Below are positions 41,288 to 63,394 of a DNA stretch of 64,000 nucleotides, in pieces; position 1 is the stretch's first letter; every line of letters starts with the position of its first letter. The stretch is from Malus domestica. Taxonomy: Eukaryota; Streptophyta; Magnoliopsida; Rosales; Rosaceae. Location of the stretch: positions 6,407,001-6,471,000 of the forward strand of contig NC_091673.1 in NCBI RefSeq assembly GCF_042453785.1, in the 5' to 3' direction. A model generated the notes under the pieces. The model was given only the letters and a program-made list of their open reading frames with translations, was not told the origin of the DNA and searched no databases. The position numbers and the translations under genes are program-made.

Positions 41288-41514
41288 TGTTAATATGTAT
41301 GCAGATATATCAGATAGAGAGAATTATCAAGAACTTAGAGAGAGAAAGTAAGAAGAGAGAGAGAGATGAATATCTTGTGTTGAATATTACTTACTCATGA
41401 AGTCATTACATTTAGACTTATATAGAAGCTCAAATACATGTAACAAACTAACTAACTAAATGCACAATCTATTGACAAGTGTCATAATCCCACACACTAA
41501 TATATATCCTAATA
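41288..41514 (-). repeat. 3' LTR of the Copia element
   Basis: 227 bases, TGTTAATATG...CCTAATA on the plus strand, nearly identical to 46910-47134. The last bases have changed from the CTAACA seen in the other copy. Confidence 0.9.
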
Positions 41515-42730
41515 TCCCCCCTCAATCTTAGGTTTGGATGAACCAAGTATGAGATTGGTACAATGAGACCGAAACAAAGGAGAACTAAGTCCTTTTGTTA
41601 GTATATCCGCATACTGCTCCCTGGAAGATACAAATTGAACCATGAGACGATGTTTGGCAACCCGTTCACGCACAAAATGAACATCTATCTCAATGTGTTT
41701 CGTACGCTGATGTTGAACAGGATTGAAGGACCAGGCTATGGTGGACAAATTGTCACAAAAGAGAACTGAAGCTGTTGGAAGTTTGATGTGCAAAAACTGA
41801 AAAGCTGTTGGATCCAATCAAGTTCAGCGGAAGTGGAAGACATAGCCCGATATTCCGCCTCTGTAGAGGATTGTGACACGGTATTCTGCTTCTTAGATGA
41901 CCAGGAAATGGGATTGCCACCTAAAAACACAATTAAGCCCGTTGTAGATCTTCGATCATTAGGGTTGCTAGCCCAATTTGCATCACTAAAAGCTTTTAAC
42001 TGTAAGTCACTAGCAGAATATGATATACCAAAGGTCATAGTACCCTTTAAGTATCGCAATATTCTCTTGACTGCAGTGTAGTGAGAAATCATAGGGGCTT
42101 GCATAAACTGACACACTTGATGAACAGAAAAAGCAATATCCGGTCTGGTGAAAGTAAGATACTGCAATACACCTACTATACTTCGATAAGCTGCAAGATT
42201 GTTAAAAGGAGAACCATCATCCTTGAGTAATCGATTGTAAGGCAAGCAAGGTGTATCACACGACTTGCAATCAACCATTTCTGATTTCTGTAATAACTCT
42301 TGTATATACTTGGTCTGAGACAAGAAAAAACATGTACCAATTCGATCAATTTGGATGCCAAGGAAGTAGTGCAGATTTCCCAGATCTTTAATATCAAATT
42401 CAACTGTAAGAGAGTCAATGACTTGTTGAATGACAGAAAAAGCACTGCCGATGACAATTATGTCATCAACATAGAGTAGTAAAATCACAATCTCAGTACC
42501 AATATGCTTAACAAACAGAGAAGAATCAGCATAAGTGGAAGCAAAACCAAGAGAAGGCAGAAAATTGGTGAACCTTTCATTCCATGCCCTTGGGGCCTGT
42601 TTCAAACCATATAAAGATTTGTGCAGTTTACATACAAACTCAGGATGAGTTGGATCTTCAAACCCCGGAGGCTGAGCCATATATACCTCTTCGTGTAACA
42701 AGCCATGTAAGAAGGCATTTTTAACATCGA
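41509..42730 (-). pseudogene. Copia reverse transcriptase and RNase H (broken)
   Basis: The RT motifs [13 protein letters not shown] and [10 protein letters not shown] are present, as are the RNase H motifs SDANWA...DRRSTTG and [11 protein letters not shown]. The frame shifts near 41740-41810, after which the C-terminal part (DILTKGL) continues to a stop at 41509. At about 42729 a TAG replaces the glutamine expected before [10 protein letters not shown]. Confidence 0.88.
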
Positions 42731-43921
42731 GCTACCTTAACGACCAATTAAAATGTGCAGCCAAAGCTAGTATTAATCGAATAGTAGTAGGTTTGATGAC
42801 AGGGCTAAAAGTTTCCCCATAATCCAGTCCAGGTTCTTGACTAAAGCCCTTGGCTACCAGCCGAGCTTTATGCCTGGAAATAGAACCATCAGAGTTCTTC
42901 TTAAGCTTGAAAATCCATTTGCAGCCCACTAAGTTTTTTCTGAAAAGGTAATGGAACCAAACTCCAAGTTTCTTGAGTATGCAGTGCTTCAATCTCTTCT
43001 TGCATAGCTTTATACCAAACATGGACCTTAATGGCAGATTTATAAGTTGCAGGCTCACACAGTGACAAATCAACATAACTGGAATCACTAAGAGTGCTGA
43101 GGAAAGCTTTCTTCTTAACAATACCATTCTTGCTCCGAGTTTGCATAGGATGCATATTTAAATGAGCAATAGGCAACATTGGTTGTGGATGATTAGGACT
43201 AAACTCAGGATCCACAGGGAGTAAGGAGGAAGAGCTTGCTGAGACAGTAATGGACTGAGGAGATGAAGCATCTGTGGGATTCAAAGTAGAAGAGTCTAGG
43301 GTGGAAAGTGTTTGAGGAGGTATGACATATGGTATTGGTGCAGCTGCTAAGGGTAGTGAAGGATGAATATCAGAAGATGCAGGTGATGAGGCACATGCTA
43401 TGACACACTTAGACTGAGCTAGCAATTGTTGATATGGAAAAATGGATTCATCAAACACAACATGCCGAGATATAAAGATCCTCCCCTTCAAGACATCAAA
43501 ACAAATAAAGCCTTTATATTTAGAGGCATACCCCAGAAAAACACACTGAGTAGTTTTAGGTTGTAATTTGGAAGTGTTATAGGGCTTTAGTAAAGGAAAA
43601 CACGAACACCTAAAAACTCTAAGATGAGTAATCACAGGAGATTTACCAAATAGTAACTCAAATGGAGACTTATGATTTAAAACTGGTGTAGGCATCCTAT
43701 TGATTAAATAGGCAGCAACCTGACAAGCAAAAGACCAAAACTGAGAAGGAAGCTTAGCATATTGCAGCAAGGTAACAGTAGTTTCTATAAGATGCCTATG
43801 TTTTCGTTCGGCTAAGCCGTTTTGCTCAGGAGTGTATGGACAAGAAATTTGATGTAACATCCCTTTGACTTTGAGAAAAGCTTGTAGTTTATGACTTATA
43901 TACTCTCCCCCACCATCTGTT
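42731..43921 (-). pseudogene. Copia integrase C-terminal part and linker (broken)
   Basis: It starts at TDGGGEY with PYTPEQNGLAERKHRHL, the conserved integrase end, followed by the polyprotein linker and the CKWIFKLK...ARLVAKGF approach to RT. A frameshift lies near 42930-42945. The upstream half of integrase is separated from it by the solo LTR. Confidence 0.85.
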
Positions 43922-44577
43922 TGTAGTACTTTTATGCGCAAACGGAAGCGAATTATAACAAAGTACCTAATATCCATGTTGTAGGTGAAAGCTAAAACAA
44001 ACAATCTCAAACTAACACAAGAGATTTACGTGGTTCGGCGTAAAGTCTACTCCACGGGCGAAGCACGGCGATGAATTTCACTAAACAAATGGAGATTACA
44101 AAAGAGTGTTTAAACTTTCACAACCCAAATCCCACAAATTACGAACCCTAAACCAAACGAGTAGAGAATCCAAAGCTAACGGAGAAGATTCTCCCAAATT
44201 GCTCTCTAACTCACAAACTCACAAATTGACTCTCACCAAATTTGCCAAATGAATGAGTCATGAATTTGCCACACTTATGACTCCAAACAGTGACCTCCAT
44301 CCAAAACCAAAATAGAGAAAAGCTCTCTAAACCATGATGAGGCACACTAAATACACTAACCCTAAGGTCCTATTTATAGTGCATAGGACTTAGGTTACAA
44401 TAAGAATCCTAATAGGAAATAAATCCAAATCCTAATCAAATAGGTAATTAACAAAATCTCTTCATCAAGGAAACTAACTAAGAAGTCAAAACCAAACCCA
44501 AATAGGACACCAAAACCAAATAGGTAACACAAACCTAATTTATTGCATCATCCTAATTTTGAGCCAAAAACCCAACA
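43922..44577 (-). mobile_element. Solo LTR (656 bp) nested in Copia integrase
   Basis: The ends are TGTAGTACTT...AACCCAACA on the plus strand (TGTTGGG...TACTACA on minus) with a perfect 5-base duplication CTGTT at 43917-43921 and 44578-44582. A TATA-type site CTATAAATAG lies on the minus strand near 44371-44380. Removing the insert restores the integrase phrase IKILQTDGGG, which fixes the borders. No internal region remains. Confidence 0.85.
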
Positions 44578-45380
44578 CTGTTTGCAAAATCTTAATGGTT
44601 GCAGAAAACTGAGCTTTAACAAAGGCATAAAAGGAGACAAATGTATCAAAAAAGTCAGATTTATTTATAAGTGGGAACACCCAACAAAATCTAGTACATT
44701 CATCAATGATAGTTACATAGAATTTGAAACCATCAATTGAATTATAGGGTGCAGGGCCCCAAAGATCACTGTGTACAACTTCAAAAGGTATTTGATATTG
44801 ATGAGTACTAGATTGAAAAGGCAATTTTGTAAACTTTCCTTCTAGGCAACTATGACAGACTATTGGTACATCATCCTTGGAACACCTAATATTAGCTTTA
44901 TTTAGTATAGTAGAAACAATATTATTGGTAGGGTGACCTAACCTACTATGCCAACGAGATGAACTAATGAGCTGTCCCAGATATGCAGAAACCATGATGT
45001 TTGGCAAGGGATGGGATGGGATAAAGTCCATTACTGCATAGCCCTTTGTAGAGGATCCTCCCTGTGGCCTTGTCTTGAATCCAAAAACAGAATGCATCAA
45101 AAATCAACCAGCAGTTGTTATCAAGACAGATTCTATGCACTGATAATAGATTCTGAGACAATTTGGGCACATATAAAACAGAATTTAATTTGATAGGATG
45201 AACTGGTGTATGAATAACAGTGCTGCCAACATGAGATACTGTCAAACCTTCTCCATTAGCAGTTTGAACGGTCTCATTGGTTGGATATGGAGAGGCTAAA
45301 GACAAGTTACTGAGATCAGTGGTCATGTGATTCGTAGCCCTAGAATCAGCAAGCCAAAGTTGAGGGGAAGGCTGAGAGGA
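44578..45380 (-). pseudogene. Copia GAG-pre-integrase and integrase N-terminal half
   Basis: The protease/pre-integrase stretch (LNSVLYVPKLSQNLLSV) is followed by the HHCC zinc-binding part (WHSRLGHP...CHSCLEGK) and HSDLWGPAP of the catalytic core. The frame changes once between the two overlapping open pieces near 45000-45100. It ends where the solo LTR entered. Confidence 0.85.
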
Positions 45381-46650
45381 AGATGCCTAAGAAGATGATG
45401 AAACCATTGTATGCATGGCTTGCATTGCAGGCTGAGAAGGAAACTGAGGTGCTGAAGGAGCATAGGAATACGGAGCCATGGATGGTTGATGTGGACCAAT
45501 GTATGAAGGACCCTTATCATTGTAAAAGCAAAACCAAGTTGTGTGGTTATTCTTTCCACAAATCTGACAACTAGATTTATCCACTGTCTTGGAGTGACAA
45601 AATGGTGCAGTATGACCATATGCATTACATAACTGACAAAACACAGATTGAGCAAAAGGCACGGCTAGAGATGGACCAAGAACACCGGAAGTAGGGACAA
45701 GAGTCTGATTAAAGAACTGTTGTCTTGATGCAGGATACCGATACCCTGGATTGAACTTTCCTTTACCCTTCTGCCTATTATTGGTAAACTGTCTGAAACC
45801 ACCATTATGACCATTAGATGATCCATTATATGAACTATAAGACACATGACCAGGATGAGATTGAGTATGATAAGAGGAAGACTTAGGTTCAGATATGACA
45901 TTGGTATTGGCAACCATGGCAGACAAAAACTGAGATGAGACATTGCTCTCCACAATTAGTTCTTCTGCGAGTAATTGAGACCTAAAGTCTTTAAGAGAAA
46001 TGACACTTTCCCTTCCTCGAATAACACATCGAAAAGTATTGTACTCAAGAGGTAAGCCATTGAGTACCAATATGACAATATCCTCATCAGCAAAGTAAAC
46101 TCCAGCAGCAGACAAGTAATCTCGAGCCTCCTTAATTTGCTGCAAATATTTAGACACAGAATCTGATCGTTTCTTAATGGTTTGCAGATTTGATTTCATC
46201 TGAAATATGCTGGTTCTTGAAACAGTAGAAAACTGTTCTTTCAATCGATTCCAAAGATCACAGGCACTAGAACTTCCAATAACACATGAAATGGAAGCAG
46301 GTGATAAAGTTGCACTAATCAGTTGCATCAATGCTCGATCATGCAGTTTCCAAACAACGTATGCATCATTCTCAATTTGAGAAGAAGAATTACCAGATAC
46401 TATACCAAATTCACTTGAATTAACAAGAAATCGAGGATGACAGAGATTAGAACCATCAACAAACTGCATAATCCCATGACCTTTCTAACAACAATTGCAT
46501 TTGAAATTGCCAATTCAAGTAATTTGTATCATCAAGCTTAATATTCACAGAAGTAGGAATTGTGGAAATAAGAGCAGTAATTGGAGATTGAAGAATCTGA
46601 AGTTGTGATGCAGTTACCATATTCGCAATTTTCGAAGAACAACTTGTCAC
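45381..46650 (-). pseudogene. Copia gag with CCHC knuckle
   Basis: The start is LDDTNYLNWQFQM, the UBN2-type gag head, then a frameshift near 46460-46490, then a long open part to 45387. Two Cys/His clusters occur, CQLCNAYGHTAPFC and CQICGKNNHTTWFC, the second fitting the CX2CX4HX4C knuckle. The gag is nearly intact apart from the shift. Confidence 0.85.
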
Positions 46651-49792: not shown

Positions 49793-51726
49793 TTTTTTTT
49801 GGGATGAATTGGAAGTTTGATTTAATTTGCAGCTGCCTCCATCCAAATTTATATGAAGGAATGTCGTGGAAGAAATAAGGATTGCTGTCAATTGGGCAAA
49901 TGGGGGAATTAGGAGTTACAGAAGGACATTTGGCACAAAAGTAGCAATGCAACCTGGACGAAAAAGAAAAGATAAAAACAAACTAAAACCAAACTTGGTT
50001 TTGAAGTGGATAAATTGCATTGAGATTTAGGCACCGTCCTTAAAGTCAAAAGGGCAGGTCTTGGATTTGGGTTTGTACCCAAAACTTGTAGTATGCAGTC
50101 CCAAGTTTCTTCCTTTGTCTTCACATTTTCACAGACAATTTAAACAAGAAACGTTTCTGTAATCAGCCTCCTGAAACTGGAGGTAGACTTACCTACGCCC
50201 TCAGATGCCATTGGGACAACTTGAACTGATAATACAGTGTCATGTTCGAAACGATACACAAGACACTATGATATTGATATTGATATTGATACTGATATGA
50301 AACAAGACACATTGCTTTTATGGTTGATTTGGGATGAAATCCTAAGTGTAGGTAAGTTCTGACTTTAAAATTGAACGATGATTTTTATGACACGAATATA
50401 ACGTCATGTTGACACGAATGGTGATATCTCGTAAACAATAAAATATTGTTTGTAAGTTTCTCAAGAGACCCCGATAAGAGTAAACAGTGTAGCCCCTCCC
50501 AGAAAAGTTGCCATCTTGAAAATTGGCTTTTGGATGAAATCTACACAAAAGACAAGGCCATGAGGTGAAGACAGCACGGAACATAACAACAAGTGGATCC
50601 CACATGGGCCCCACAAGCATTCCCAATTTGGACCCCGCAATTTGGATTGAATGTGAAAGAAGGTCGATTCCAGAGATAAAAGGTCTGCATTGAATTATAG
50701 AGGGAGGGAGGAGGTGTGATTCCCTGTAACCCACATAAATATCCAACCAGATGAGACCCCACCAATCCCTACCTACCATCGTCCCATGACCTCCAGCCAG
50801 CCCGCCATTGCCATTTGCCACCAACAGCTAACGGTCAACGTCTAAACTGCTAACGTTCTATACTGGTCTCCGGTGACGACTCAAATCAAGATGTTAGGCA
50901 GCTAGCTTAATACTGTACTGATATTGTAGAAAATTTAGTGATTAGTACTAATAACATGTCGATACATTTTTTATTCAGCGACAATAATATTAACATATTA
51001 TCAATGACATATGATCAATCCATTCATAGCAGCTTGCTCGAGAAACATGAGAGCATCGGCAGTCATCAATAGGGGCACCTAGACTGAACAGCTAATAAAT
51101 GCAAAAATAAAGGATTTTTCCCTACGTCCATATTAGCTGCAGCCAGCAGGGATAGACCGGAGTATAATTGAATTTTTTCGAGTTATATCCTAAATAAAGG
51201 GTATGAATTGCAGATAGAAATATGTATATAACTAAACTGTCAAGGAATTCTTACCAGAATTTGGTTCAGAAATCAATCCATGAGAGAAGAAAAGAATGAA
51301 GAAGTTGTAGGCAAAGTTTTGAGTGCATGAAAATTGGATTTTTTCCTTAAACACGAGACCTATAAATATTTATGTACACGTACCTTCTGTTTATGCATTG
51401 GATCAGTGAAACTATGAGTTTCTGCAGGTGAGGTGAGAAGCTTAATCGAGGACTTCTGGCTTCTGGTTTTTGGCTTTTGGCTTCTGCTGTTGTGAAATGA
51501 ATTAGCTAGCTAAAGAGAGAAAAGCCAACTCGAAGAAGAATATGTTCAGATGAGAAGTCAAGAATGATCTACGGCTGTACTGGAAAAGTTTCCTCTTTGC
51601 TATTCAACTTCAAACTTTCAAATCAAAAGACTGAAGACTGAAGACTGAAGACTGAAGGAGGAGAAATTGCAAACCACGCGGTGTTGGACCGAAAAGCCGA
51701 CAGCTATATCACACACACACGCAAAC
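49793..51726. other. CRK2 upstream region
   Basis: No second gene. A TTGACC W-box core lies near 50833-50838 on the minus strand, fitting pathogen-responsive CRK promoters by inference. A short GAAGACT tandem (8-base period) lies at about 51628-51655. Open stretches on the minus strand at 50342-50824 have no recognisable domain. Confidence 0.5.
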
Positions 51727-52473
51727 ATGTATACATATATGTGTATAGGAGGAGGGATAGCTATGTCCGGCAGTAGTTGCTGCATTTGACTGTTGTGAGA
51801 AATGAATGTCTCCATTTAACAGTTTTACCCTAATAATAATAATCTCTTGTGATGTGTCTGGGATTAGTTTTCATGGTTAAATAAAGTGAGAGTTGACAAT
51901 TGAAGCTTTTTGTTTTTTCTTCATAAAATACCAGCTTGGTTTTCATATGCACTACAAACTCGTTTTGGTTTAGTGATATTTGTCTCCGCTGTTGACGTAA
52001 TATTAAATTTGACTCGCATGCATGACGAGAACGATATATATTTGTGACAAATTTAACATCTAATTGTTAAAGTGCCAATTACAGTTTTATTTTTTTTCGT
52101 CCCCAGCAAAATTCAACAAAGGCTGTTAGCTCAGCACAAGTTTGTATGGAAAGATAATGTTCATATTGATGCCTTGTTTTCTACTCATATATAGCTCTTT
52201 GGCACAGATGACATATTCAACGTGAAAACAAACCACCCACTGCAATATAAGTCAATAACATTTAGTCTTAATCATCATTCCAAATAATTAACAGATGCAC
52301 ACAAATTAATATCCCGAGGAAATAAAAAAAAAAAAAAAACCAAGTGGAGAAGAATGTTGATAATAATAAATAATTGTTGCTATTATTAATGTTATTGCTG
52401 TTGTTATATTGTAACTATCTAATAATATATATACATATATATATATACATATATATATATATGTTATAGCAAC

Positions 52474-53212
52474 TGTTGGAAGTTTTGAGACTCTTGTCCC
52501 ACATTGGGGAAAACAAGATTCCCAAGGGCCTTTACATAGATTTAATGCTTTAATCTAGTAATTACAACATGGGCTATTTGGAAATGAATTGAAGGCTTGG
52601 GCCTTATGGTTGTGTGGATTAGACTTGTATAATATAGCCTAAATACAATTAATATTAATTAATCAAGACAAGGGCCTTGGGCCTTGAAATTTAAAATTAA
52701 TCTAATTCATTAATTTTAATTTTCGGATTAAGTTTTTAATTAATTTATTAATTAAAAACGTTTTGATTAAAAGACACAGCTCTTAGAAAGAGTTGTGTAC
52801 CTTCAAATACACTGAACATGTATTTGAAAGGGTGTGAAACAGCCTATATATCTGCAATCACAGTTTCCAAATGGATCATCTTTTTCTTGCTCTTTCATTC
52901 TGTACGAATTTTCTAGAGAGTAAACACACAAAAAGCAAATTCGCTAGAGTTCTAAAATCTAGTGCGGATTGTAGAATTAGGTAGTTGAATCTTGGTCGAG
53001 CAGACGTTATAGAACCACAAGCACATGAGTGGGACGAAAATACTGTTCGAAGGACATAGCTTTTACGCTAGCCTCTACCTTTTGTAATCAAGTTAGTAAC
53101 ATTAATTTCTGTATTTATTGTGTAATTTTCGTTTTGTATAGCAAATATATTTTGGTTAATAAAATATTAGAATTTCTGTTATTTTTGTTTATTTCTAAAT
53201 TGTTCTCCAACA
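52474..53212 (+). mobile_element. Solo LTR (739 bp)
   Basis: It begins TGTTGGAAG and ends TCTCCAACA, so the ends are short inverted repeats with TG/CA. Copy B of the spacer reads straight through this point, proving an insertion. The flanks are GCAAC and ACAAC, a target duplication with one mismatch. A TATATAT motif near 52852 may be its promoter. No internal retroelement genes remain. Confidence 0.82.
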
Positions 53213-53264
53213 ACAACTTGGTGTTTCAAACCCACCATTGTCATTTAATTTGAATGTTTATCTT

Positions 53265-53665
53265 TGTTGATGCACAAAACCGGAGGGATCTTGGAACAAC
53301 ATAAATCTGACCGTGAATCTGTAAGAAAGTAAAGAACACAAGATGTATCGTGGTTCACCCCAATGTTTGGGTTACGTCTACACTGATGTTGATATTGTTT
53401 CACTTTGAATGGTGAATATACAAGAAGGCTAGAGGCAGTGTGCTCTCTAGCCTATTTTCTGTGTTTGCCCTCTTTGAGATGTTTCCTCTCTTCCCATGGC
53501 CTAAACCTTGACCTCCCCTAATGAGGAGAGTGATGAGTCATTTTATAGAATAAGGGCTTCTCACTTATTACATATTTGCCCCTTCATTTATTACATAATT
53601 ACATTTGAGTCCCCCGAGTATTTATACGAGGTCTAAATACGAAGGCCCTAAATATGGTACAAACA
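53265..53665 (-). repeat. 3' LTR of the Dof-carrying element
   Basis: 401 bases, TGTTGATGCAC...GGTACAAACA on the plus strand, alignable without gaps to 56507-56907. Confidence 0.9.
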
Positions 53666-53883
53666 GTAGTCCCCCAAGTCTTCAGTCAAGATAGTCTTTT
53701 GGCTGGAGACTTGAAATTCAGTCCATGTGTGGGCTGAAGTAACTAGATGTCGTCTAGAACTGATACTCGATATGAGGGGGTGCTCAATGTGAAATGATGC
53801 TCAACTAGAAGTAGCACATGTTGCGAGGCTGCTCGGCTTGTGGCTTATGTTGCCTTGGTTGGCTCGGCTTGTGGCGTTGAAGA

Positions 53884-54330
53884 TGAGGGAGTCCATTTTA
53901 TAGAATAAGGGCTTGCTTCTCAATACATAAATGATGGGCTAGAGTTGATGCTGGCGGTGATGCGGTTGCTCAGCAGGCGGCGATGCTCTCTAATGATGGT
54001 GAGGGAGTCCCTTTTATAGAATAAGGGCTCACTCCTCAATACATAAGTGATGGGTTAGAAGTGATGCTCGCGGCGAGGCGGTTGCTCAGCTGGCGGCGAT
54101 GCTCTCTAATGAAGGTGAGGGAGTCCCTTTTATAGAATAAGGGTTCGCTTCTCAATACTTAAGTGATGGGCTAATGGTCTCTTTCTAAAGAAGGTGAGGG
54201 AGTCCATTTTATAAAATAAGGGTTTGCTCCTCAATACATGAATAATGGGTGCTCTCTAATGAAAGTGAGGGAGTCCCTTTTATAGAATAAGGGTTTGCTC
54301 CTCAGTACATAAATAATGGGCTAAGTCCCC
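53884..54330. repeat. Tandem repeat in the element, unit about 115 bp shrinking to 70 bp
   Basis: The phrase GAGGGAGTCC.TTTTATAGAA recurs at about 53886, 54007, 54118, 54198 and 54267, followed by variants of CTCAATACATAAGTGATGGG. The first three units also hold GCGGTTGCTCAGC.GGCGG. The unit resembles part of the LTR itself (GAGTCATTTTATAGAATAAG). Confidence 0.8.
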
Positions 54331-54487
54331 TAAGTATTTTTCATGAGGCCCAGTTGCGGAAGCCCAATATATGGTACATAGTGTAGTCCCCCAAATCTTC
54401 AGTTAATAGAGTCTGTTGGTTGGAGACTTCAAATTCAATCCATGTATGGGCCGAAGTGTCAGTTGTTCGGAGGCGGTCTTTATATAC

Positions 54488-54692
54488 CATGCACTGAAGC
54501 TTTGTAGGTGAAGCTTTGAAAGTGAAGTTTTATAGGTGAGGCTTTGAAAGTGAAGCTTTGAAGCTGGAGCTTTTGTAAATAAGGTTTTGAAGCTAAAGCT
54601 TTGTAAATGAGGCTTTCGAAGTCGGAGCTTTTGTAAATGAAGCTTTCGAAGCTGGAGCTCTGTAAATGAAGCTTTTGAAGCTGATTGACATG
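54488..54692. repeat. Minisatellite of GAAGCTTT-type units
   Basis: GAAGCTTTGTAAATGA and GAAGCTGGAGCTTTTG phrases alternate about a dozen times. Its translation on the minus strand gives a meaningless repetitive peptide (KLHLQSF-like), which should not be called a gene. Confidence 0.8.
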
Positions 54693-55639
54693 AGTGATAC
54701 TCATGAATGTTTATGTATGATTGACATGAGTGATGCTCATGTATGGTGGTGATTGTCATGAGTGATGCTCATGTATGATTCTTTGGATGACGAGTTGTAC
54801 TTTTGATCACCTGGTTGGTGATAATAACGGCAGGCTGCTGAATAATTTTGGAGTACTGGACGTACTTTTGATTACCTAGTTGGTGATAATAGCGGCATGT
54901 TGCCGAATAATTTTGGAGTACTTGACGTACTTTTGATTACCTGGTTAGTGATAAGCAAGTGGGTGTCCGGTCAGACAAGAGATCACCATGAGCACGTGGC
55001 TCATCAGTCTATAAGTTGGTAGACTTCTTTAATCAGCAACAATGTTGATCAGTGGATTTAGTTGCTCAATAATTCATGATAATAATTGACAATATAAGTA
55101 CGACCGTATAATGAATAAATCAAATTGACAAAGTTTGTCAAGGCAAAATATTGTATTACGTGCCTTCTATAAATAAATAATTTATGCAGTCGTGTGGTAA
55201 ATCACATGTTATATAAATCAATAATGTGATAGTAATCATGTGATATCATAAATAATAATTATATTATTTAATCATAAGTCATCATGATATAAAAATAATA
55301 AAATGATTATTTTATAATTAGTCATCATGACAAAAATAATAAGATATTAAATAAACAATGATATTGAGAAAACATAATGATGTTTGCTGAAAAGGAAAAG
55401 TAAAACTTATTTTATTTTATTTTTCTTTTGGCAGATGGCAGATGGAATAATAATAGGATTAATAATAGAGTGATGGCAGATTGCAGACGAAATAAAAACT
55501 TATCTTTTTAGACAATGGAGTGGGCATCTTCTTTGGTGGTCAACAAAAGTTATCGGTCTTGATAAAGTTCTTATCTCTATTTTTGACGAAATTATGGTCT
55601 GCCTCCTTTATTCCTTGCTTTTGCAATGTCACCCATGTG

Positions 55640-56210
55640 CTCTCGCAGAGGAAAGCTCATGGCTCACAATGTTCTATATAGTTGAGGGCGCTGTAATTCT
55701 CCAACAAAACCATCTCTCCATGGAAGTCCTGCCCTGCTCGCTCTCAGCCTGGTTGCTGCTGGGACCTTGTCCCCATCCCAATTCCAACCACAGCAGACCA
55801 CTGGAATCAGGTGATTCACAATATGAGAGTCAGACGTGTTCCCCATTGAATTACAGAACTGCATCAAGTTATTGAGGTGTGAGAACTTCATTTGATCAGG
55901 AAAAGAAAGGTGGAAATCAATTGGGATGTGAAATATCGACGACGAAGAAGGGCTCTGATTATTGGGTTTCTTAGGAGAAACTTTCTTGTTCTTTCTACAC
56001 CCGCCGCCACGGGGATGTTTCTGAGCGTCCCGCCTTTGGTCCAATACTTTTGCAGGTCTTGCAAAAGTACCTAGGTTAGGAGAGGTTGTAGTTGTTGTAG
56101 TAGCAAAACTTGGTGTAGGTGGAATCGCACCTAGGGCACTTGAGGGCTTGGCCATGCTGGGGCCTCAACCTCCGCTCGACCAATGGCCTCGAGTACGTTA
56201 ACATGTCACC
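55640..56210 (-). pseudogene. Captured Dof zinc-finger transcription factor fragment (frameshifted)
   Basis: On the minus strand one frame gives an N-terminal [10 protein letters not shown] followed by the Dof finger start [21 protein letters not shown] stop then replaces the residue before PRYFCKTC. A frame change follows, after which the adjoining frame supplies the finger end GGGCRKNKKV and a Ser-rich tail. The four zinc cysteines of the CX2C...CX2C layout are all visible (CPRC and CKTC). Dof proteins are plant-specific DNA-binding regulators of AAAG sites. The fragment lies wholly inside the LTR element and in its sense direction, so it is a transduplicated copy, now broken. The tail (55664-55960) stays open but matches no domain I know. 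Confidence 0.85.
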
Positions 56211-56487
56211 GAATAACGCTAGGACGAGTCCATCGGAGAGTCCTCGCGAATCGTTCCTTGTAGCCAGTCAAATGAATCCATGCAAACTTGCAGAGAATTA
56301 TGACCCATCAAACAAAACTAACCGAACCCAGATGAAAGAGAGAGTGAGAGTGAGAGTGAAGGAAAGAGAGAGATTGTGTCTCTATATGGGTTTTGCAGAT
56401 CCACGGTGGACAGTGGTGAGGTTGTGAAGGTTTCACGGTGATGAGATAAAAATTTGAGAGAGAATCAACATAGCTTTTCGTGTCTTT

Positions 56488-56506
56488 TCCCACAGACGGC
56501 GCCAAA
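56488..56506 (-). other. Primer binding site of the Dof-carrying element
   Basis: The minus strand reads TTTGGCGCCGTCTGTGGG directly beside the LTR. This GGCGCC-type primer site is common in plant Gypsy-type elements and fixes the orientation. Confidence 0.75.
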
Positions 56507-56907
56507 TGTTGATGCACAAAACTGGAGAGGTCTTGGAACAACATAAATCCGACCGTGAATCTGGAAGAAAGTAAAGAACACAAGATGTATCGTGGTTCAC
56601 CCCAATGTTTGGGCTTCGTCCACACTGATGTTGATATTGTTTCACTCTGAATAGTGAATATACAAGAAGGTTAGATGCAGTGTGCTCTCTAGCCTATTTT
56701 TTGTGTTTGCCCTCTCTGAGATGTTTTCTCTCTTCCCATGGTCTAAACCTTGACCTCCCCTAATGAGGAAAGTGATGAGTCATTTTATAGAATAAGGGCT
56801 CCTCACTTATTATATATTTGCCCCTTCATTTATTATATAATTATATTTGAGTCCCCCGAATATTTATACGAGGTCTAAATACGGAGGCCCTAAATATGGT
56901 ACAAACA
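56507..56907 (-). repeat. 5' LTR of the Dof-carrying element
   Basis: 401 bases matching 53265-53665. Most differences between the two are C/T or G/A changes, as expected from decay of methylated cytosines. Confidence 0.9.
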
Positions 56908-57288
56908 ATCTTAATCAGGGAATTGTTATTGGCACTTTAAAATTCTCATTTTATACTCCAAACTTTCCATATGTAGAAAGAAAAATACACTTGTGAGGAG
57001 TGTAGAATGAGATTTTTAGAGTGTCAATAACACTTCCCTATCAATGATTATATTTGTATACATCGCACCAAATTAACCCAGAAGACATATCTAATTAATT
57101 TATTGAAAATGAGAGTTTCCCCCTTAAAACTTATTTTCTCTCACTTAAACCCCATCCTCTTTATTTTTTCAGACTTAAACCCCATTTACTAGAGTCCAAC
57201 TAAGCAAATTTTGTAACATCCCACATCACTTAGGGGAGTGGATCCTGTAAGTTTTATATGTATATTCTCATCTCTACCTAGCACGAGG

Positions 57289-57395
57289 CCTTTTGAGAGC
57301 TCATTGGCTTTGGGTTCCATCAAAACTCCGAGGTTAAGTGAGTTCGTGCGAGAGCAATCCCAGGATGGGTGACCCACTAGGAAGTTCTTGTGTGA
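57289..57395 (+). other. 5S rRNA-like domain in the left Cassandra LTR
   Basis: The 5S internal-promoter landmarks are recognisable: CCATCAAAACTCCGAGGTTAAG, here given as two joined pieces of the A-box side, then GCGAGAGCAATCCCAGGATG and GGTGACC of the C-box side. In Cassandra this domain is known to carry a pol III promoter. It is not a functional 5S gene. Confidence 0.85.
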
Positions 57396-57648
57396 GTCAC
57401 AGAAACAAAACCTTGAAGACATGGTCGGGGCTTAAAGCGGACAATATCGTGTTATGACGGAGTAGAGCCTGGGATGTGGTGAGGGCCCGAGCCGGAATGT
57501 GACCATTTGGTATCAGAGCCAATCGCTGGCCAGAAGTGTGGACGTCGGGCCCCTAAGGGGGGTGGATTGTAACATCCCACATTGTCAAGGGGAGTGGATC
57601 CTGTAAACCTTATATGTATATTCCCATCTCTACCTAGCACAAGACCTT

Positions 57649-57750
57649 TTAGGAGCTCATTGGCTTCGGGTTGCATCGGAACTCCAAAATTAGCGAGTTC
57701 GTGTGAGAGCAATACCAGGATGGGTGACCTATTGGGAAGTTCTCGTGTGA
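57649..57750 (+). other. 5S rRNA-like domain in the right Cassandra LTR
   Basis: The same domain as in the left LTR but more diverged: AACTCCAAAATTAGCG replaces the usual AACTCCGAAGTTAAGCG, while AGGATGGGTGACC is kept. The changes lie in the A-box side, so promoter activity of this copy is doubtful. Confidence 0.8.
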
Positions 57751-57860
57751 GTTCCCAAAAACAAAACCGTGAAGGCGTGGTCAGGCTCAAAGCGGACAAT
57801 ATCGTGCTACGGCGGAGTCAAGCCTGAGATGTGGTGGGGGCGCCGGGATGTGACAAATTT

Positions 57861-58639
57861 CCTTAACAAGCTTGGTATGTTAGTTTTTATAATTCTTGTG
57901 TTCCTAAAATACCCTTATAGATTGTACCGTGGGTGAGGGTTTGACTTAAGATTTACAATAAATTTTGTATTTTATTGATTTCAATGCAATTAAATGTCAA
58001 TTAACCTATTATTTTATTAGGCTTTCTTTTCTCAATTTTTTTTTTACCAACAATTGTTTTATTGTGAAACTAACTTACCTTATTAGCATGCAATATATAA
58101 TATAAATAAAAATATTATGGTGTTTTACGTTGAAACATGGAAAAATAATTTGTGTCAAAAAAAGTTGTACAAAATAATTGTTGTATTTTTTTTTCATTTC
58201 ATGGAAAATAATTTACCTATCTATGTTAGTACCCACTTAGAATACAAATACTGTAAAAATAAGTTACCTACCCCATAGGCATGATATTGTAAAGAAAAAA
58301 AATATAGGTAAATAGTTTGTATCAAAAGAATGTAGGTCAATTACTTTGTATCAAAAAAATGTAGGTAAATTAGTGAATTTTAAAAGTATAGGTAAATAGT
58401 TTGTAATACGTGGTTTTAAATCAGGAGCTCATTGCTCATTGCTCATTGAGCATAATTGAAGGTGAGTAATAATATTTATTGACATATTTAGGGTATTGTG
58501 GCATAAGTTGTAAAGATTTTATAATGATAGTTCATTTATTTGCCAACATGACAAACTATTTGAATTTTGGGTTTTATTTGGATGTTTAATATGAGATGAG
58601 TTTTTGTCTAAACAATAACAGCTACAAGGGTCTATATCT
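57861..58639. other. AT-rich insert or flank between Cassandra and spacer copy A
   Basis: Not present in spacer copy B. It contains repeated short phrases (GTAGGTAAAT, TTTGTATCAAAA.AATGTAGG at 58300-58400) but no gene and no clear element borders. Confidence 0.4.
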
Positions 58640-58862
58640 AAACAACCCATTAATTTATGAACCAGTCTCTTTGCAGAGAAAAATTGCCAGACTAATTATA
58701 TTTAGCTTTTGTACTTTCCAAATAAATTATAATATGATATTTTATTCCATAAAATTCGATGAATTCAGTGCGGTGCTTGAAAATTGTAGCAGCTGCAGTT
58801 TGATCTACATGTGCACCCCAAGAGCTGGCATTGTCATTATTCCTTGATTAACTGTTAATCTT

Positions 58863-59955
58863 GGACCGTCTTCGTATATGCATACATATATGTGTGTTGG
58901 AGGAGGGGTAGCTATCCCCGGTAGTAGTTGGTTCATTTGACTTGTGAGAAATGAATGTCTCCGTTTAACAGTTTTACCCTGTTTAACAGTTTTACCCTAA
59001 TACTAAATCTCTTGTGATGTATCAATGATTAGTTTTCATGGTTAAATAAAGTGAGAGTTGACAATTGAAGCTTTTATTTTTTATTTTTTATCTTCATAAA
59101 ATAGCAGCTAGGTTTTCATATACGCACTACAAACTTGTTTTGGTTTAGTGATATTTTTCTCCGCTTAGTTGGTTGACAGAATATTAAATTTGACTCGCAT
59201 GCATCACGAAAACTATATATATTTGTGACAAATTTAACATCTAACTGTGAAAGTGCCAATTACAGTTTTCTTTTCTTTTTTTTCGTCCCCAGCAAAATTC
59301 AACAAAGGCTGTTAGCTCAGCGCAAGTTGCTCTGGAAAGATAATGTTCATATTGATGCCTTGTTTTCTACTCATATATAGCTATTTGGCACTGATGACAT
59401 ATTCAACGTGAAAACAAACCACCCACTGCAATGTAAGTCAATAACATTTAGTCTTAATCATCGTTCCAAATAATTAACAGATGCGCACAAATTATTACCC
59501 CGAAGAAATAAAAATAAAAAACCAAGTGGAGAAGAATGTTGGTAATAATAAATCATTGTTGCTATTATTAATGTTATTGCTGTTGTTATATTGTAACCAT
59601 CTAACATATATATATGTTATAGCACCTTGATGTTTCAAACGCACCATTTGTCATTTAATTTGAATGTTTATCTTAATCAGCATTATCACTAATTGTATTT
59701 GTATACAGCGCACCAAATTAACCCCGAAGACATATCTAATTAATTTACGAACCAGTCTCTTTGCAGAGAAAAATTGCCAGACGAATTATATTTAGTTTTT
59801 GTGCTTTCCAGATAAATTATAATACGATATTTTATTCCATAAAATTCGATGGATTCAACTCGGTGCTTGAAAATTGTAGGAGCTGCAGTTTGGTTTGCAT
59901 GTGCACCCCAAGTGCTGGAATTGTCATTATTCCTTGATTAACTGTTAATCTTGAA
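58863..59955. repeat. Spacer duplication, copy B (uninterrupted)
   Basis: It matches copy A across all four of its blocks without the retroelement insertions and shows the pre-insertion state at each site. It adjoins copy A directly at about 58863, so this is a tandem duplication. Within it, TTTAACAGTTTTACCCTG occurs twice in a row near 58966-58998. Confidence 0.85.
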
Positions 59956-60470
59956 TTATTTTTTGTATTAAATTTGACTTTAGTATGGTTGCTTGTTTCA
60001 GTATAATTCTCACCGACATTTGAAAACGCTGGTTCAACCAATTATATATATTAAATTAAAATAAAGAAATAGAGTTTCACTTTCGTAACTTTGATTTTGA
60101 TTTTATTCGAGAAGTACACCAAAACTGCCTAATACAAACAAAATCTCGAAAAGTTTATTACAAGAAAACTGATAACGTGACATTGTGACAATCGTATCAT
60201 TTCAAAATAAAAAGATTGCATATCAATAATATAATTCTCTACGTATATTTTACAAAGGGCATTCAGGTCTACTTACCCATGTTGTGAAAACATATAGAAG
60301 TTGCACAAAATTTGACTGTAATTAGACTCTAGGAGCTGCGGGGCTGGATCATTTGACATTCACAAGTCTGTAGGAATTGCTTAAGCTCATAGATCATCTG
60401 AACTCGCAACATTTACATCGTGGATGATGACAAATACAAAATGTTCATCTCGGCTCAATCCAGCTTTGGG

Positions 60471-61904
<1,434 letters not shown>

Positions 61905-61958
61905 CTGTGAAATTAAAACAAGAACACAAATTTAATCCAATGCTTAAAGATAGAACAT

Positions 61959-63394
61959 GTATTCCTTCTCCAATTCATGACTTCTAAGCATGTAATTTGT
62001 TGTGTTATTGTATACTTGAAAATGTCACTTAGTATTACGGTCCGGTGGTATTTCTCTTCGCTTAGAAGTGAGAGGTCTTGGGTTCGAATCTTGTGGATAT
62101 CGAATTTGATACCAAATTAGGCTGCCCAGGCCTCATTGTGTGGTTTAACCAAACTCTCAATCTCCTTTAATGTAAAAATATCGATGTACTAAAAAAAAAA
62201 ATGTATACTTGAAAAATCAGGAAACAGGTCAATTAAAAAGGGGCTGATCCCATAACTTTTTATCCTTTTCGGTTATCTGATTCATAACGTCATAAAATTT
62301 TGAAGAACAAAGTAGTTTATGATTGGTGAGCCCATGTCAGCCTGCACTTTTAATTTGAGTCCATGCATCACTATTGGGTTTAGACTGATATTGCTTATCA
62401 ACATTGGGCTTACTGTAGAATGGATGACCCATAATTTACCGGATTCCAACTCTCATGAATTGGGCCCTCTTATCTGATCACTGATCTCAGAAGAAGCGTC
62501 TTCCCGCCGTTGTTTCAGTAATTGACATGGCTTCGCTTCAGTTACATCTTCCATTCTCAGCTGGTCCGCGCCTACCCATTTCCCGGTTCAGAAGCGGTTC
62601 GGTCCTCCACCGAACGCCAGACGCTCTTCAACCGCATTGCCCCTGTCTATGCCAACGTTTGATTCCTCTCCTTTTTTCTTTTTAAATTGTAGTCACTTTT
62701 TCTTTCTTTGTTAATAACTTGCATATGGGCACACATAAATTGTGTGAGAAAATTCGTATTTTTGTTTTTGAAATAGAAGGAGAGAGGAAGGGAGTGATAG
62801 AGAATGTGGGAGTGTGAATTATTTATTTATTTATTTAATTTTTTTAATTAGAGATATGTTAGGATTACATGTAGGTGAGGTTTTGAAAAAAAAAACAAAA
62901 TTTGGTTGTGTAAAATTACATTTCTACCCCATATTTCTTATTCATGTTCTGTTTTAATTAGAGGGTTAAACTGGTAATTTTATAGGATTTTGATTGAGTG
63001 TTTTATTAATTAGTAGAGATTAATTTGCCTAGATATTTATCTTCTGATTTTTTAAATAATTTTTAGTTAAATGATTTATTGAGCTTGGGTCAGCATCGAA
63101 TATGGAAAAGAATAGCAGTTTCATTGAGCGGGTAAAACTTAAAATTAACTATTTTTTTGCTCTATTTTTTGGTGGAATATATATATGCTTTTTTATCAGG
63201 ATGTGGAATATATGTGTATATATATATATATATAAAATATGTATGTATATAAAATATATGTATGTATGTATTTGTGTATGTATGTATGTATATTTGGGTC
63301 TCTAAATTTCAAGTTTTTGAATTTTGGGTTGCATAGCAAAAATTTGAGAGTGTGTGTTGGATTTGTGCTGTGGAAGTGGGGATTTAGCGTTTCT
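61959..63394 (+). pseudogene. MENG: Second MENG copy, truncated and broken
   Basis: Duplicate of the MENG upstream region and exons 1-3: exon 1 62527-62656, exon 2 63067-63131, part of exon 3 from about 63335. Upstream identity to 38938-39227 is clear. Exon 1 keeps the ten bases missing from the first copy but lacks 14 others, so it too is out of frame. A tryptophan codon in exon 2 has become leucine, the exon 3 acceptor AG has become AT, and a TGA follows. Exons 4-8 are absent: exon 3 stops at TTAGCGTTTCT and unrelated DNA begins. Intron 1 is enlarged by about 300 bases relative to copy 1. Confidence 0.88.
62023..62201 (+). mobile_element. tRNA-derived SINE with intact target duplication
   Basis: It is flanked by a perfect 14-base duplication TGTATACTTGAAAA at 62009-62022 and 62202-62215. 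The B-box GGTTCGAATC lies near 62092 and a plausible A-box (GGTCCGGTGGTATTTC) near 62039. It ends in an A-rich tail just before the second duplication. Because it splits the duplicated MENG upstream block, it inserted after the duplication or was lost from copy 1. Confidence 0.85.

Follow-up and report, generated by a model that had tools for sequence, protein, structure and literature searches.

The element and its surroundings

The window analysed here is a 64,000-nt stretch of the Malus domestica genome (C13:6407001-6471000, on contig NC_091673.1), and the genome searched comprised 651 Mb in 19 contigs. At window positions 53265-56907 lies an LTR element of 3,643 bp whose sense direction is the minus strand (Table 1). 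Its two LTRs, each of 401 nt, are identical at 378 of 401 positions, with 20 transitions and 3 transversions between them (K2P 0.0605). The LTR alignment and the Pfam Zn_ribbon_Dof matches reported below confirm a sequence-only reading of this locus, which had noted Dof zinc-finger motifs on the minus strand between 401-nt LTRs flanked by ATCTT.

The primer-binding-site-like string TGGCGCCGTCTGTGGG, which we take to be of the tRNA-Asp type, recurs with at most three mismatches in the sibling elements L011, L012, L014, L015, L019, L022 and L023, and the polypurine-like motif ACTTGGGGGACTAC adjoins the 3′ LTR, with up to two mismatches, in L011, L012, L014, L015 and L022. Pfam detected no protein domain above the cut-off, and hence no gag-pol domain, in the three sense frames of 53666-55860; outside this interval, the internal region consists of the leader and the Dof piece. 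The LTRs, target-site duplication, primer-binding-site-like and polypurine-like strings and the lack of a gag-pol domain identify the element as a non-autonomous LTR retrotransposon, in agreement with the earlier proposal that a host Dof piece lies in sense direction inside such an element.

The TATTCTATAAAA-like box of the tandem repeats at 53878-54324 occurs in both LTRs too, and a second, degenerate copy of the polypurine tract and LTR start adjoins these repeats at 54324-54457. Stretches resembling 53878-54457 are present in L011, L014 and L022. With its TATTCTATAAAA units and degenerate LTR start, this region could possibly represent extra promoters or the trace of an older template jump.

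Removing the element and one copy of the duplication from the filled site yields the empty site TGTTTATCTTAATCA. The empty site is supplied by a diverged repeat (51727-53264 and 58878-59747, 88%), the second copy of which is itself flanked by 215-bp direct repeats (at 58649 and 59739; 92.6%). The surroundings contain further repeats. A MITE-like insert of about 121 bp at 56918-57038, with the inverted ends GGGAATTGTTATTGGCACT and AGTGTCAATAACACTTCCC, is absent from the paralogue near 59680. Direct repeats at 57211-57489 and 57567-57845 (84%), starting near TGTAACATCCCAC, enclose 5S-rRNA-like text and TTGGTATCAGAGCC, and are presumably a Cassandra-type TRIM; Rfam gave no 5S match at gathering score for them and nothing at all in 53200-58000. 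Copia-type remains occupy 41739-46484 on the minus strand, spread over several frames (RVT_2, 9.6e-47; gag, 9.6e-23) and accompanied by 225-bp direct repeats at 41288 and 46910.

Table 1. Features of the window element and its empty site (window positions)
Feature	Position	Strand	Basis or remark
Target-site duplication ATCTT, left	53260-53264	.	paralogue 59665-59679 uninterrupted at site
3′ LTR	53265-53665	-	94.3% identity to other LTR; TG..CA ends
Polypurine-tract-like ACTTGGGGGACTAC, adjoining 3′ LTR	53666-53679	-	sequence resemblance
3′ part of internal region, partly common to siblings	53666-55673	-	
Tandem repeats, five TATTCTATAAAA-like boxes	53878-54324	-	
SPX-like gene piece	55674-55729	-	98% to C15:13394810-13394865; common to sibling L012
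DP transcription factor gene 5′UTR piece	55726-55807	-	begins directly behind likely intron end ACCAG
UPF1 piece	55808-55859	-	94% to C6:5585051-5585102
Spliced Dof mRNA piece	55861-56358	-	50 nt 5′UTR, exon 1, part of exon 2
Leader behind 5′ LTR	56359-56506	-	conserved in siblings over ~75-150 nt
Primer-binding-site-like TGGCGCCGTCTGTGGG	56489-56504	-	sequence resemblance
5′ LTR	56507-56907	-	401 nt, paired with 53265-53665
Target-site duplication ATCTT, right	56908-56912	.	matches left ATCTT
Empty site in paralogous repeat, TGTTTATCTTAATCA	59665-59679	+	reads through without interruption

The Dof piece and its neighbours

The captured Dof piece includes the start codon. Zn_ribbon_Dof was matched on three frame pieces (E 2.7e-10 for the CPRC piece, 3.3e-5 and 0.017), with the CPRC piece alone above the curated Pfam cut-off. 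When the genome was searched with the Dof query, the one full match among the 40 scored of 74 first-look candidates was the window copy itself. The next matches, both over query positions 1-350, were C14:26423035 (85%) and C6:30171921 (82%); these were followed by weaker matches over the Dof finger and by matches confined to the 3′ part. The captured copy sides with C14 against C6 at 26 sites and with C6 against C14 at 3, among them the final base of exon 1. On this comparison, we assign the parent gene to the C14 locus and its homoeologue to C6. The joined exons of the C14 gene contain an open frame of 327 codons, with a Dof domain in exon 2 (E 3.1e-34).

Compared to C14, the captured copy has the 5′UTR and exon 1 joined directly to exon 2, and the parental intron (691 bp in C14, 564 bp in C6, with GT..AG ends) is precisely missing. 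Because the 691-bp intron was removed exactly and exon 1 fused to exon 2, it was RNA that was captured; a comparison with the introns of the parent gene had been proposed as a check in the sequence-only reading, and its outcome favours capture. That reading had placed the fragment at 55640-56210. Dof is present there, with a true extent of 56358-55861; the stretch 55640-55860 is not Dof and consists mostly of the UPF1, DP and SPX-like pieces. The stop that it described was found as a CAA-to-TAA change, and in place of its single frameshift, comparison to C14 shows three deletions of 1 nt each as well as an in-frame loss of 36 nt. The stop and frameshifts fall in the Dof finger, leaving no open frame with an intact finger.

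The captured copy is unlike both genes at 20 sites where C14 and C6 agree, and 15 of these changes are C-to-T or G-to-A. They are distributed 7/9/3 over codon positions 1/2/3, with one more in the UTR; the corresponding counts are 2/4/15 for the C6 branch, which has five UTR changes besides, and 0/0/3 for the C14 branch. The third-position share is thus 3/19 in the captured copy and 18/24 on the C6 and C14 branches combined (Fisher p 1.7e-4). As the changes in the captured copy lack a third-position bias, it has decayed without visible constraint, and most likely it is functionless. Its divergence (20/498) does not differ significantly from the ~12/401 of each LTR (p 0.47), and the two events, capture and insertion, are thus indistinguishable in time. 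The 21-mers of the insert are identical to C14 mRNA in 127 of 478 cases and to C6 in 40 of 478, and given the sharing with C14 mRNA, the copy may at most be a source of small RNAs matching its parent.

A separate processed pseudogene, placed by LINE-type retroposition into an existing LTR element, would also be intron-free, as the Dof stretch is. However, no flanking duplication of at least 5 nt was found at the ends of the Dof stretch; the presence of one had been named in advance as evidence against capture, and we reject a later independent Dof insertion because there is no such repeat. Moreover, the Dof stretch ends mid-exon, fused to the UPF1 piece, and in L011 this UPF1 piece is preceded by other cargo, which means that what stood at this place was exchanged rather than interrupted. 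We consider retroposition the least credible of the explanations weighed here.

The slot behind the leader in the window element is a mosaic of the Dof piece, a UPF1 exon piece, a DP 5′UTR piece and an SPX-like exon piece. The UPF1 piece ends where its parent reads CACCTG/GTAAGT, with GTAAGT as the likely 5′ splice site; its copy in L011 matches UPF1_Zn_bind at 2.3e-5 (24.8 bits; cut-off 25). It is joined to ATTCCAG, which in the DP gene L013 follows ..TTAATACCAG, a likely 5′UTR intron end, with E2F_TDP (1.1e-10) downstream. The UPF1-DP join thus connects the putative donor of one gene to the putative acceptor of another, both splice sites being recognised from their sequence. The SPX-like piece stops where its parent has GTATTG, another likely 5′ splice site. 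We presume that this parent, at C15:13394810-13394865, is an SPX-like gene; Pfam gave no match in the parent stretch searched. The block 55812-55726 was considered as an element motif and rejected; L013, L016, L017, L018, L020 and L021 were left out of the element count as copies of the host DP gene, the DP domain having been checked in L013 alone among these six loci. A weak LTR-like stretch (74% over 130-150 nt) is also present in L013.

Sibling elements, joins and the route of capture

We found seven siblings through shared cargo blocks (L011, L012, L014, L015, L019, L022 and L023) and L034 through its cargo, and picked L057-L061 as close LTR pairs regardless of cargo, reading 2 kb behind the 5′ LTR. 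The LTR pairs of L011, L012, L014, L015 and L022 have perfect 5-bp duplications and K2P values of 0.067-0.086. The LTR search returned 3,368 first-look candidates, and all 40 that were scored reach 93% identity or more along almost the entire LTR; the copy number of the family is likely to be large.

The Pfam scan covered the window and every sibling except L034, 12 siblings in all, with L011 scanned as ORF pieces. Host protein domains at E 0.01 or better were present in 8 of these 13 elements: besides Dof in the window, cystatin in L011 (1.2e-10); CSN3 in L012 (8.9e-11); PheRS (1.6e-11), Rad21 (2.3e-6) and CDC48 (1e-5, below the curated cut-off) in L019; carbonic anhydrase in L022 (0.0069, below cut-off); DUF7810 (4.7e-53) and DUF3475 (3.9e-18) in L023; WD40 in L058 (1.6e-6); and the aquaporin family in L061 (6.5e-6). 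None was found at this threshold in L014, L015, L057, L059 and L060, although the DP block is present in L014 and L015. Among the five siblings chosen by LTR alone, two contain a host domain.

The recognisable cargo lies in the sense direction: cystatin; CSN3 with a piece that we take to be DnaJ-like; CDC48, PheRS-alpha and Rad21; DUF7810; WD40; and aquaporin. In the cargoes of L011, L012, L014, L019, L022 and L023, sense frames or ORFs gave host domains at E 0.01 or better in five of six, and as a control, none of the 18 antisense frames of the same cargoes had a Pfam match at E 0.05.

Genome searches assigned parents at C4, C13, C12 (CDC48), C1, C5 (PheRS) and C12 (Rad21) to the L019 cargo of about seven pieces; at C13, C17 (CSN3), C15, C9 and again C15 to L012; at C7 (cystatin), C16 and C5 to L011; and at C9, C16, C1 and C17, among others, to L023. 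Multiple pieces were present in all five elements whose cargo was searched in this way (window, L011, L012, L019 and L023). Two apparent parents were rejected and dropped from the gene counts: C8:3445943 (L056) proved to be the leader of a sibling, and the C11 "parent" assigned to one piece of L023 sits inside another sibling. Because of these two cases, the remaining unnamed parent loci (C4, C13, C1, C9 and the C15 piece) may not all be genes.

Dof homology was found in none of the 13 sibling loci. The suggestion that the family spreads a Dof sequence therefore finds no support, given this result and the single full match among the scored candidates of the Dof search. The sequence-only reading had also held that absence of Dof from other members would speak against capture. 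The members examined do lack it, but the capture is nonetheless real because pieces of other host RNAs occupy this slot in the siblings. By these matches, the host gene mosaic at this one slot differs from copy to copy among the copies examined.

Read-through into a downstream gene, or 3′ transduction, is known for plant LTR elements (PMC13317346) and might be considered as a source of such cargo. Yet the cargo sits behind the leader and ahead of the 3′ internal region, the cargo of one element matches loci on different chromosomes, and cargo tends to begin at gene 5′ ends. We regard 3′ transduction as very improbable here.

A base-level comparison covered seven parental introns (two in PheRS-alpha and one each in Dof, CDC48, CSN3, cystatin and the C16 gene), and the cargo lacks every one of them; the spacing alone suggests that three more are missing in the C17 gene of L023. 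The sample of seven is biased, being drawn from split matches to the exclusion of contiguous pieces, and since introns were recognised by a split parent match, the count is no census of kept versus lost introns. The L023 cargo piece 746-1133 recurs at C11:8590579-8591031 in L057 (LTRs at C11:8589865 and 8592791) with 60 bp extra, which are possibly a kept intron.

The joins are of more than one kind. Some lie within CT or GA tracts or have a short overlap of a few bases. The Dof 3′ junction overlaps by 1 nt only, and the 5′ junction falls at the CT-rich end of the leader, its exact base being uncertain by several nucleotides. We read the parental 3′ end of 17 pieces: four end exactly before a likely 5′ splice site GT (UPF1, DnaJ-like, CSN3 and SPX-like), four end within 2 nt of one (CDC48, PheRS, Rad21 and the C5 gene), and nine have no splice-site end (Dof, DP, C4, C13, C1, C15, C9, cystatin and C16). 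Chance estimates for exon-end joins, made for 15 pieces, depend on an assumed exon length of 180 nt, and when the null is GT alone, p is no better than ~0.05. In seven pieces a start codon was identified, and all of them begin within -115 to +62 nt of it: DnaJ-like at -115, Dof at -50, CDC48 in the 5′UTR, PheRS at -21, Rad21 at +13, CSN3 at +62 and cystatin at -75, or at +57 if an upstream ATG in the same frame is taken. The UPF1 and SPX-like pieces begin inside the coding part. The DP exon start is preceded by at least four different upstream sequences across elements (L011 and the window; L014; L015; L019, L022 and L023). Compared at the base level, the Rad21, C1 and PheRS joins do not qualify as clean splice joins and were rejected as such; Rad21 begins 13 nt past the ATG with the sequence running on unbroken, and C1 misses by one base.

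The best explanation, and in our judgement a highly probable one, is that a non-autonomous LTR retrotransposon belonging to a large family acquired host RNAs when reverse transcription switched templates. Synthesis of the minus-strand cDNA would have run from the 3′ LTR towards the leader and then off the element RNA, continued on the spliced Dof mRNA up to its 5′UTR and re-entered the element leader within the CT-rich stretch; the cDNA, with an LTR at both ends, would then have inserted at ATCTT. We infer template switching as the maker of the joins, with proteins probably supplied by an autonomous partner and with some joins, UPF1-DP above all, produced by splicing of RNA that was chimeric or incompletely spliced. 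Except at exon ends, the pattern of joins is, by sequence, that of template switching on spliced RNA. The pieces that end at donors (4/17 exactly and 4 within 2 nt) are not predicted by plain template switching on mature mRNA, and the exon-end joins point to splicing of chimeric or unfinished RNA, with cis- and trans-splicing inseparable.

An intron-bearing mosaic might instead have formed at the DNA level (Helitron, Pack-MULE or break-repair filler) and entered an LTR element, whose transcript was later spliced and reverse transcribed. The splicing step would remove introns and join exons of different genes, as in the exact joining of the UPF1 piece, ending at its likely donor, to the DP exon start. 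The different sequences upstream of the DP exon start, the other pieces ending at or near likely donors and the possible kept intron in the C11 sibling also fit such a course. However, random filler should be strand-mixed, and the 18 antisense frames taken from six sibling cargoes gave no Pfam match; piece starts tend towards gene 5′ ends, and some joins lie in CT/GA tracts and mid-exon. On balance, we think a DNA-level origin unlikely. A more speculative variant of RNA-level capture, which we put forward tentatively and consider somewhat doubtful, is a serial exon collector, in which the reverse transcriptase copies 5′ portions of incompletely spliced pre-mRNAs again and again, while splicing of the chimeric RNA joins donors and acceptors of different genes. 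If true, the exon chain behind the single LTR promoter would draw on several genes and keep changing from one copy to the next.

Relation to known gene-carrying elements

Strict size limits place the window element (LTR 401 nt, element 3,643 nt) neither among LARDs, with LTRs over 4 kb, nor among TRIMs, whose whole length is under about 1 kb. Pack-MULEs and Helitrons also carry mosaics of host gene fragments, but are DNA transposons. Hallmarks of Pack-MULEs are terminal inverted repeats and a 9-bp target-site duplication, whereas the window element has LTRs, a primer-binding-site-like string and a 5-bp duplication, and no inverted repeats of at least 60 nt were found in 50000-62000. Pack-MULEs carry introns plus exons (PMC4717578); in the family described here, the introns compared are absent.

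Among LTR elements, maize Bs1 contains pieces of three host genes (PMC13317346), with exons only (PMC4717578). The window element likewise holds host gene exons without introns inside LTRs. Unlike Bs1, cargo here varies among the examined copies of a large family, reaching about seven pieces in L019, and the search of the window copy revealed no gag domain. The short non-autonomous soybean TRIM GmaRetroS15 carries intron-free exons of three host genes and has a 5-bp target-site duplication (PMC4717578). The window element shares the intron-free exons and the 5-bp duplication, but is 3.6 kb long with 401-nt LTRs and was found in one Dof-bearing copy; in the soybean survey, all gene-carrying elements but two were in at least 2 copies (PMC4717578).

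LTR elements of maize, rice and sorghum carry host gene fragments, with 425 elements and at least 189 captures counted (PMC2774510). Under the conditions of the maize survey, none of the 425 gene-bearing LTR elements had more than one standard nuclear gene (PMC2774510, PMC3726574), whereas several pieces per element occur here in all five elements with genome-searched cargo. The parts of PMC5659011 available to us cover Rosaceae LTR families and contain nothing on captured genes. Our search of the openly available literature found no account of Dof capture by an LTR element, no occurrence of the string TGGCGCCGTCTGTGGG and, judged by titles and abstract openings, no account of this element family. 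Gene capture by LTR elements is already known from Bs1 and GmaRetroS15; multi-gene cargo that varies from copy to copy appears to be new.

Because the Dof, CDC48 and cystatin pieces resemble genes, elements of this family may give rise to false gene calls. Accounts of gene capture by LTR elements usually present it as a matter of single lucky events. Varying mosaics at a fixed slot would make the frequency of capture, the choice of template and the role of splicing countable in one genome, and the family would be a natural exon shuffler at the RNA level.
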